DNA of 64,000 nucleotides from positions 1 to 64,000 of the forward strand of contig QAIB01000006.1 of assembly GCA_030418545.1 (NCBI GenBank), read 5' to 3'. Numbering within the stretch: position 1 is the stretch's first letter; each line of letters starts with the position of its first letter. This stretch comes from Xenophilus aerolatus. GTDB taxonomy: Bacteria > Pseudomonadota > Gammaproteobacteria > Burkholderiales > Burkholderiaceae_C. Of the stretch, positions 27,579 to 31,845 are shown in pieces. Below the pieces are notes generated by a model. That model made no database searches. It was not told the origin of the DNA and worked only from the letters and a program-made list of their open reading frames with translations. Both the position numbers and the translations under genes were made by a program.

Positions 27579-30689
<3,111 letters not shown>

Positions 30690-30698
30690 ATAACTCTG

Positions 30699-30727
30699 TT
30701 GATAACCGGTGGGTGGCTTTGTACAAT
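30699..30727 (+). promoter_or_regulatory. Near-consensus sigma-70 promoter downstream of uvrA
   Basis: TTGATA (30699-30704) and TACAAT (30722-30727) are separated by exactly 17 bp, the optimal spacing. Each box matches the consensus at five of six positions. It begins 10 bp after the uvrA stop and points away from it. No protein-coding start follows; the transcript would begin near 30734 and run into the terminator at 30816-30851. Confidence 0.8.
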
Positions 30728-30733
30728 GAGTTT

Positions 30734-30851
30734 GCCGGGAACGAAAATCGGCTCCATGCCGTGTGTGAGCGGGCCTCGGCGCCCGACACCTATATTCCCG
30801 GTCACCCTCTATGCGGCCGCTGATCCACCACGGGTCAGCGGCTTTTTCTTT
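30734..30851 (+). ncRNA. Candidate small RNA of about 115 nt downstream of uvrA
   Basis: A near-perfect promoter, a structured body and a rho-independent terminator define the unit. The body is closed by CCGGGAA (30735-30741) pairing with TTCCCGG (30795-30801). Inside are the hairpin CGGC-TCCAT-GCCG (30749-30761) and a longer hairpin GTGT-(bulge GAG)-CGGGC / GCCCG-ACAC (30763-30789), giving a three-way junction. A single-stranded linker TCACCCTCTATGC leads to the terminator. No convincing ORF is inside. I do not recognise it as 6S, 4.5S, tmRNA, RNase P or a known riboswitch; 5' and 3' ends are predicted only. Confidence 0.65.
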
Positions 30852-31645
30852 GTGTAGTAATTGCCGTAGGCCGCTGCGGTGGTCTCGTCGACGGCGTGGA
30901 TGACGCCCACCTTGGGCCATATCAAGTCCGCGTATCTGCTTTCGTTCCGCTCGAAGTAGCGCTGAATCGCCCAGAGCAAATAGTCCACCGCCTGCAGTGC
31001 AGGTTCCGCCCCGGGATTGGACTGCCTCGCCACGATGCTTGATGTCACCGGCCGCGCCCATTGGCTCTCGAAACGCACCTTCGCTTTCTCGAGAGCCATC
31101 CGAAGAGCAGCCGAGCGATCCGATCTGCCGCGACTGGCAAAACAAACGTCGACCTCCGGGGTCAGGTGCAGTCTGTTCTTGAACAGCCTCGACACGAGGG
31201 AGTCGTACAGCTCGTTGGGGTTGTACCGATAGTTCGCGTCATGCCGGTTGCGTTGCTGAACGTAGTCGAGCACCCTCAACTTATCGCGCACTACCGCAAA
31301 GAACTTCAACTCGTGGCGCGCAAGCACCTTGTAGACCTCCCGCCTAACCTCCGGCAGGTCATCTTTCGCATGAAACGCGATCGCGGTCTTTCGACGTTCC
31401 GGCTGCATCGAGGGGACGCCTCGAAAATACGGGTCCGCCAGCAACTGGCGCCGCAATGCATCCAGGTCTTCGCCCAAAGCAGCTGGATCGGCAGCTTCCA
31501 TCGCGCCGAGGATGAAATATCGGGAGCATCCATCCTGCCCAGGAAGCGCTCGGCCCCGGGCATCGAATATGACGGGGTCTCCCGCTTCGTCGACATAGCA
31601 ACTCCGGCGCGCGGTTTTTCCGCCGGTGAGATCAATTTCGCTCAT
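30809..31645 (-). CDS. DUF3800 domain protein
   Basis: A 278-residue protein with the RNase H-like DUF3800 signature: SCYVDEAGDPV near 15-25 with acidic residues D19, E20 and D23, YFILGAMEA near 43, and the C-terminal QAVDYLLWAIQRYFE near 235-250. Biochemical function is not established; members often sit in mobile or defence-related regions. Base composition is visibly lower in G+C and codon use more mixed than in neighbours, which suggests transfer. Its stop lies within the 3' end of the small RNA unit, and the last residues YYTKKKPLTRGG are encoded through that terminator. The ATG overlaps a short upstream frame as ATGA. Confidence 0.85.
   Translation of the reverse strand: MSEIDLTGGKTARRSCYVDEAGDPVIFDARGRALPGQDGCSRYFILGAMEAADPAALGEDLDALRRQLLADPYFRGVPSMQPERRKTAIAFHAKDDLPEVRREVYKVLARHELKFFAVVRDKLRVLDYVQQRNRHDANYRYNPNELYDSLVSRLFKNRLHLTPEVDVCFASRGRSDRSAALRMALEKAKVRFESQWARPVTSSIVARQSNPGAEPALQAVDYLLWAIQRYFERNESRYADLIWPKVGVIHAVDETTAAAYGNYYTKKKPLTRGGSAAA
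30816..30851 (+). terminator. Rho-independent terminator of the candidate small RNA
   Basis: GCCGCTGA (30816-30823) and TCAGCGGC (30835-30842) form an 8-bp stem with an 11-base loop, followed by TTTTTCTTT. The same bases encode the last codons of the convergent DUF3800 gene (30809-30850 region). Confidence 0.8.
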
Positions 31646-31764
31646 CCCTCCGCCCCGATTTCTTCAAGTGATCGACAGGCAAGGGCCATCGTGCACTGGT
31701 GGCCAAGCACAACCTCCTCCCCAACGACCCGGCCTCGGATTGTGCCGCGATCACTCTCACCCAA
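31642..31764 (-). CDS. Short ORF or gene relict overlapping the DUF3800 start
   Basis: An open frame of up to 40 codons ends with TGA overlapping the DUF3800 ATG by 4 bp (ATGA), as translationally coupled genes do. Its sequence (RGRVVGEEVVLGHQCTMALA, then CRSLEEIGAEG) looks protein-like. There is only a weak TTG start at 31764 and an in-frame stop 18 bases before that. It may be the 3' remnant of a gene that once preceded DUF3800. No function is recognised. Confidence 0.3.
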   Translation of the reverse strand: MGESDRGTIRGRVVGEEVVLGHQCTMALACRSLEEIGAEG

Positions 31765-31845
31765 CCACGGAGCTCGGGGTCATCGCAATGGCACGCTCCA
31801 GCATCTGCACAGAGGTGCAGCGGCGCGTTCCAAGGACCAGCGCCC

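Follow-up and report, generated by a model that had tools for sequence, protein, structure and literature searches.

A structured RNA convergent with DUF3800 genes, often found alone in phages, is a candidate antidote of a nuclease-based defence module

We analysed a 64,000-nt stretch of DNA from Xenophilus aerolatus (the window). Next to uvrA lies a small cassette consisting of a noncoding RNA and, converging on it from the opposite strand, a gene for a DUF3800 protein (Table 1). An initial annotation of this DNA had described a promoter, a three-way junction, and a terminator; all three are where it had placed them, both on rereading the sequence and in a scan for promoters and terminators. 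Between 30000 and 31600, the scan found a single promoter-like site, which is the one in front of the RNA (0.3 expected), and two terminator-like sites (1.0 expected), one of which is the RNA's 12-pair terminator. The annotation had missed the overlap with the convergent gene, whose stop codon is at 30809-30811 and whose last codons are antisense to the terminator stem.

Table 1. The RNA, the DUF3800 gene, and their parts, in window coordinates.
Feature	Position	Strand	Basis or remark
Cassette (RNA, DUF3800 gene, and upstream region)	30687..31840	.	1,154 bp
RNA promoter, TTGATA-17-TACAAT	30699..30727	+	sequence reading, site scan
-35 box, TTGATA	30699-30704	+	followed by 17-bp spacer
-10 box, TACAAT	30722-30727	+	sequence reading
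Noncoding RNA, about 115 nt	30734..30851	+	start inferred from the -10 box
Three-way junction	30735..30801	+	reading, alignment, covariation
P1, closing stem, CCGGGAA/TTCCCGG	30735-30741/30795-30801	+	
P2, hairpin CGGC/GCCG with loop TCCAT	30749-30761	+	nearly invariant
P3, second hairpin	30765-30789	+	variable, covarying
Conserved 3' junction strand, CCTATAT	30789-30795	+	
Linker, P1 to terminator	30802-30814	+	
Intrinsic terminator	30815..30851	+	stem 30815-30843, T-run 30843-30851; overlaps the DUF3800 gene's final codons in antisense
DUF3800 protein, 278 aa, predicted RNase HII-like fold	30809..31645	-	PF12686, PADLOC, AlphaFold2, Foldseek; convergent with the RNA

The annotation had recognized no known class of RNA, and the window indeed has no Rfam match at the gathering score. 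At E ≤ 10, there was no relevant match to the RNA region; weak matches to Acido-1, sX13, BcKCsr2, and others are far under the gathering scores. Relatives of the RNA matched no Rfam family at the gathering score, and Rfam's DUF3800 models gave no match to four members of the RNA family at permissive cutoffs (E ≤ 10, 5, or 1). We found no repeat array across the window's RNA, and BLAST of the RNA against its own genome returned only itself and short chance matches. The predicted folding energy has a z score of -1.97, with 10 of 200 shuffled sequences folding equally well, which is weak evidence by itself.

The annotation had also placed the RNA in the context of uvrA, but this context is not conserved. 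Of 15 uvrA regions in the genus, just two have the RNA, namely that of the window and that of a second genome of its species. Nor did 37 stretches that cover 31 further cellular loci of the RNA, with roughly 1.5 to 10 kb of flank, yield any UvrA. According to the annotation, loss of the promoter and stems in close relatives would speak against the RNA. At uvrA, they are indeed missing, but in the congener G002, which we compared base by base, the entire cassette is absent, and just 23 bp separate uvrA from the next gene. Elsewhere, however, the RNA travels with DUF3800. No flanking repeats of at least 14 bp were found around the cassette.

BLAST of the RNA against 60 relatives gave one useful match outside its own genome, as well as two weak partial ones (matches H3, H4, and H6-H8, with E of about 6-7, were disregarded). 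The useful match (L002) is in a genome from another genus of the family (G028), where the RNA converges on a gene whose C-terminus is similar to that of ORF 30809-31645(-). This traced the RNA's partner to DUF3800, and judging from the gene order described below, that partner is the convergent DUF3800 gene and not uvrA.

We aligned 17 core sequences of the RNA (alignment A1), with 19 predicted base pairs, of which 12 show two-sided changes. An RNA model built on this alignment, R1, matches all 17 source genomes, as expected by construction, and includes the window's sequence as a member (30726-30813, 69.5 bits). In 16 of the 17 genomes, R1 finds one copy; the remaining genome, G065, already has a full locus and shows a weak second match (G065:C121:11737-11813, 28.5 bits, E = 0.02). 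A larger alignment, A4, contains 68 matches from 72 sources, but not L103 or L110, the two weakest viral records; we scored its 65 distinct rows. In these, 93.2% of paired cells can pair, versus 69.2% after shuffling, and the covariation score is 0.583 versus 0.171; neither value was reached in any of 500 shuffles. Covariation falls to 0.08-0.11 if the pairing partners are slid. Two-sided changes occur at 14 of the 19 pairs; as 227 of 500 shuffles reach this count too, it is not in excess. Compensatory changes in the stems, which the initial annotation had named as a check, are supported. Unlike the folding energy, this comparative evidence is decisive for a structured RNA.

Changes in P1 and P3 are compensatory, while P2 is nearly constant, as are the strands of the junction (ACAAAA or GCGAAA before TCGG; CCTATAT or CCTAG). 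In the viral set, the constancy of P2 arises in part because the search pattern selects for it. The linker between P1 and the terminator is conserved neither in sequence nor in length, so the suggestion that it is a seed is not supported. Within A4, a promoter-like site of at least 9/12 lies upstream of 27 of 37 DUF3800-linked RNAs (near-identical rows included) and of 11 of 31 solitary RNAs. Overall, the small RNA is confirmed: it is structured and carries promoter and terminator signals of its own. The RNA, its signals, the lack of an Rfam match, and the compensatory changes all survive from the initial annotation; uvrA and the linker seed do not.

Starting from the protein instead, a peptide pattern identified 16 loci with relatives of the DUF3800 protein in genome_contigs, and at all 16 the RNA lies directly after the DUF3800 stop codon on the opposite strand. 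(One of the 16, 100% identical, is from the window's own species or close kin.) The records are titled Chloroflexi, Verrucomicrobiales, Lentisphaerae, cyanobacterium, Sumerlaeota, deltaproteobacterium, and betaproteobacteria. Genome screens with R1 matched 3 of 399 Burkholderiales genomes (including the window's own), 1 of 398 Pseudomonadota genomes (the window's own), 8 of 400 genomes from the phylum of L041's genome, which is titled as a Chloroflexi MAG (its own included), and 13 of 244 genomes from the phylum of L030's genome (Tolypothrix; Cyanobacteria). The Burkholderiales and L041-phylum searches yielded nine new RNA loci, all of which converge on DUF3800 coding sequence, although at one of them (L057, 13.2 bits) the DUF3800 gene is only a relic. 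By the titles of the records, then, the conserved three-way-junction RNA lies tail-to-tail with DUF3800 in six phyla.

In the 244 genomes of the cyanobacterial phylum, we took DUF3800 proteins of this clade at E ≤ 1e-30. Twelve genomes have such a protein, and all 12 have the RNA beside it: 11 by the screen, and the twelfth (27.8 bits) by a directed search only. Counting the twelfth genome and ignoring relatedness, the association of RNA and protein has p = 1.3e-18 (Fisher's exact test). Conversely, 4 of the 15 cyanobacterial RNA loci (L062, L063, L070, and L072) have no such protein within about 1.5 kb. The genomes of two of these four (G1299 and G1234) also have a complete locus at another position, and L070 and L072 retain about 50 nt that, by eye, resemble the 3' end of the DUF3800 gene. 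So, the protein of this clade was not seen without the RNA, while the RNA without the protein is common. These linkage counts cover one clade of DUF3800 only; DUF3800 also gave matches in 3 of 14 control genomes.

The gene also decays beside an intact RNA. Of 36 cellular linked loci, eight (L032, L040, L052, L056, L057, L059, L060, and L067, with the duplicates L065, L014, and L027 uncounted) have a split, interrupted, or reduced DUF3800 gene next to an RNA that is intact. Some of these broken genes are from metagenome-assembled genomes and may reflect errors in sequencing or assembly, and the RNAs of L059 and L060 are identical.

ORF 30809-31645(-) matches PF12686 with 41.4 bits (the gathering score is 21; E = 3.1e-10) and the PADLOC model DUF3800_VII with E = 1.7e-14. 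The Pfam entry still describes DUF3800 as being of unknown function. An AlphaFold2 model from a 29-row alignment (A3) has a pLDDT of 89.3 and a pTM of 0.86. In a Foldseek search with this model, RNase HII accounts for all nine matches at E ≤ 1e-3, although the TM-scores are modest (0.32-0.40 by query length), and ToxN is not among the 50 matches listed. DUF3800 is therefore predicted to fold like RNase HII. The near-invariant residues D18 and E19 (in VDEAGD), K93, D95, and D220 (numbered as in A3, where the first row starts after the initial Met) suggest an active site, and may correspond to residues of RNase HII. An RNase H fold with a catalytic rearrangement in DUF3800, and a link of DUF3800 to noncoding RNAs, had both been mentioned in passing (available portions of PMC10910872).

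Around 12 linked loci, 95 ORFs match 160 PADLOC models at 1e-10, versus 8 models for an equal number of ORFs (95) in 12 control regions from the same genomes; the model counts overstate the contrast, because one methyltransferase matches many models. (The test omitted 13 of the 108 ORFs near linked loci, which were DUF3800 ORFs and some additional ones, as well as 12 of the 107 from control regions.) Restriction-modification accounts for 24 of the 25 PADLOC matches listed near linked loci. Judged by these neighbours, the genomic setting of the linked loci is defensive.

The RNA is also found in phages, viral contigs, and a plasmid. In IMG/VR, an exact core pattern found 20 contigs, of which 19 match R1 (L091 was dropped), and a gapped pattern found 24 new loci, of which 12 match R1 at E ≤ 0.01 and 12 were dropped. 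INPHARED has two Cylindrospermopsis phages with the RNA, and PLSDB has one Synechococcus elongatus plasmid. Of these 34 records, 32 have no match to PF12686 anywhere in the record, although many of the records are fragments. In the other two (L078 and L113), the DUF3800 gene converges on the RNA. That of L078 (9022-9916) is distant, at 17% identity to the window's, and has an integrase-like ORF nearby. Viral contigs found by core patterns are a biased sample, and IMG/VR contigs may include host DNA; there are also close duplicates among the viral records (L083/L094; L076/L093/L080; L107/L114; L120/L121). Four further queries of phage collections added no convincing phage, and a clone of human-faecal phage (L123) was excluded from the counts, as it scored only 25 bits. 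Neither tblastn against phages and plasmids nor a peptide pattern against viral contigs found relatives of the DUF3800 protein, though the pattern is insensitive and missed the DUF3800 of L113.

In the 30 distinct solitary RNAs, P1 is 91.5% paired (60% if shuffled) and P3 is 89.1% paired (58% if shuffled), so their structure is maintained. The Cylindrospermopsis phage copies have a cyanobacterial RNA as their nearest linked relative (identity 0.88), and the S. elongatus plasmid copy is 0.94 identical to a cyanobacterial linked RNA. Such relatives are expected if these copies match the system of their own hosts. Many viral copies are far from any linked RNA, at identities of 0.44-0.62 (for instance, 0.45 for L090, 0.44 for L079, and 0.52 for L076).

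tRNA genes adjoin the viral RNA in L076, L080, L093, L082, and L084. In L076 (2243-3869), a tRNA, a tRNA-Tyr, the RNA, and the RNA ligase RtcB follow each other on one strand, and in the viral contig L112 (4349-5131), an RNA repair protein of the RlaP type is near the RNA. We scanned 141 of the 150 ORFs nearest to viral RNAs against PHROGs and Pfam. The 141 include terminase, portal, three Lar-like anti-restriction proteins, DNA methyltransferases, RtcB, and RlaP; one has an Acb2/Tad1 hairpin domain.

We propose, with a probability of roughly 0.58, that the RNA and DUF3800 form a toxin-antitoxin-like defence module, in which a nuclease is neutralized by an RNA antidote, and that phages carry the antidote alone as counter-defence. 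DUF3800 would be a nuclease that damages the cell, or infected cells. Transcribed from its own promoter, the RNA would bind the nuclease and keep it inactive. If an infection stopped or outpaced synthesis of the RNA, the nuclease would be freed and the infection would be aborted. We infer neutralization and counter-defence from the distribution of the two genes: the protein occurs only with the RNA, the RNA often occurs alone, the protein decays beside an intact RNA, and the phage copies are kept in shape. This is the asymmetry to be expected if the RNA were an antidote to a harmful nuclease. In particular, the presence of the RNA without the nuclease in phages and viral contigs suggests that it restrains the nuclease and that carrying it helps phages to survive.

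One close parallel is type III toxin-antitoxin systems (ToxIN, CptIN, and TenpIN), which, in the available portions of PMC5086642, likewise combine a predicted nuclease with a structured RNA followed by a terminator. By analogy, we think that the window's module works like them, and phages or plasmids with just the RNA may keep the nuclease silent much as phage escape mutants with a solitary pseudo-ToxI can suppress ToxN (same portions). In those systems, however, the antitoxin is upstream in one operon, with the terminator in between, and consists of tandem RNA repeats, and the toxin is a ToxN-like endoribonuclease; here, the genes are convergent with separate promoter signals, the RNA is a single-copy three-way junction without repeats, and the protein is predicted to be RNase HII-like. 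Because the layout, the repeats, and the protein fold all differ, the module is outside the known type III families. AbiF/Abi_2 (PMC12373285, in the portions available) also pairs a single protein of abortive-infection type with an RNA of about 100-130 nt that has a promoter and a terminator, but that RNA is upstream of the gene and has two repeated motifs, and the protein is not of the DUF3800 family. Pseudo-ToxI is a direct precedent for an antidote RNA in a phage, and RNA anti-CRISPRs (Racrs) are another: as described in the available portions of PMC10651486, phages and plasmids encode a lone RNA that copies a component of host immunity. A solitary RNA in mobile elements without the partner protein is what we saw in most of the records above. 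Racrs mimic CRISPR repeats, while the window's RNA is the partner of DUF3800.

The antidote model explains RNA without protein, but this would also be expected if the RNA were an essential positive cofactor of the DUF3800 nuclease, a scaffold or guide in an active ribonucleoprotein. In that case, the phage copies would be decoys which, like RNA anti-CRISPRs, titrate it or cause it to misassemble. RNA-guided nucleases commonly have RNase H-like folds. Also, some Cas12a2 systems are accompanied by a TPR+DUF3800 protein (PMC10910872), and a DUF3800 nuclease is found at some VI-F and V-A2 loci (PMC12669027), according to the portions available of each. Still, the junction has no unpaired variable stretch that could be a guide, and its variable part, P3, is a covarying stem, which disfavours reading it as a guide RNA; and in cells, an RNA that outlasts a decayed gene fits a leftover antidote better than an orphan cofactor. 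We therefore consider a cofactor to be unlikely, although it is a serious contender. It is quite improbable that the RNA instead serves a phage or plasmid, for example in regulation, and that DUF3800 was acquired later in some cells without any role in defence. Copies with the RNA only in phages and a plasmid, some of them beside tRNA genes, would fit, but the presence of the RNA in 12/12 protein-positive cyanobacterial genomes, and of linked loci among restriction-modification genes, would not.

The tail-to-tail overlap, with the terminator stem antisense to the last codons, raises the question of whether the RNA's action is confined to cis, with convergent transcription, or pairing with the 3' end of the DUF3800 mRNA, limiting DUF3800 expression. 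This seems highly improbable, as antisense control needs no covarying three-way junction, and phage and plasmid RNAs retain the structure in records that yielded no DUF3800. The initial annotation's own reading was of a stand-alone, trans-acting small RNA, linked to uvrA, that pairs with mRNAs via the linker. The RNA does have the promoter and terminator signals that this would call for, but with no linkage to uvrA elsewhere, an unconserved linker, and DUF3800 beside the RNA at every one of the 16 protein-first loci, we give it almost no credence.

The antidote proposal is directly testable, as the pattern behind it is specific: in this clade, the protein is always with the RNA, while the RNA is often alone and often in phages. 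If it is correct, RNA-antidote defence gains a new protein fold, and pseudo-ToxI and RNA anti-CRISPRs are joined by another case of solitary phage RNAs that mimic an immune component. Judging from the portions available, the literature that names DUF3800 gives no tested function for it or its RNAs, and its sole suggestion is that DUF3800 may help with CRISPR interference or crRNA handling in some Cas12a2 systems. Among the papers listed by a search on solitary phage-borne antitoxin RNAs, titles and the openings of abstracts do not name DUF3800; subscription or unpublished work may overlap with ours.

Rfam has other RNA motifs that are associated with DUF3800; they run to XI and reportedly originate from a 2017 paper. 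Like the window's RNA, RF02969 (DUF3800-I) and RF02968 (DUF3800-IX) are structured and have no assigned function, and like them, the window's RNA is beside a DUF3800 gene, but it does not match their covariance models at the gathering score. A search for the layouts of RF02969 in 91 genomes and of RF02968 in 93 genomes found no copies, with the positive controls silent too. We speculate, at a little under even odds, that DUF3800 proteins, together with their RNAs, make up a broad and unrecognized class of bacterial immunity, in which a nuclease with an RNase HII fold is held off by a structured antidote RNA. Phages would then carry a layer of stand-alone antidotes, some in tRNA clusters or beside RNA-repair genes, and the orphan Rfam motifs would be the antidotes of sister systems that have their own phage copies.

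On the S. elongatus plasmid (L122, 1098-5187), where we found no DUF3800, the RNA's neighbours are genes for an Abi family protein, an integrase, and a restriction endonuclease; next to the Abi gene, a search for Rfam RNAs gave no match. At one Burkholderiales locus (L053, 1561-3077, minus strand), the DUF3800 gene is preceded by an ORF with, by eye, an HNH-like motif, which might be an extra component.
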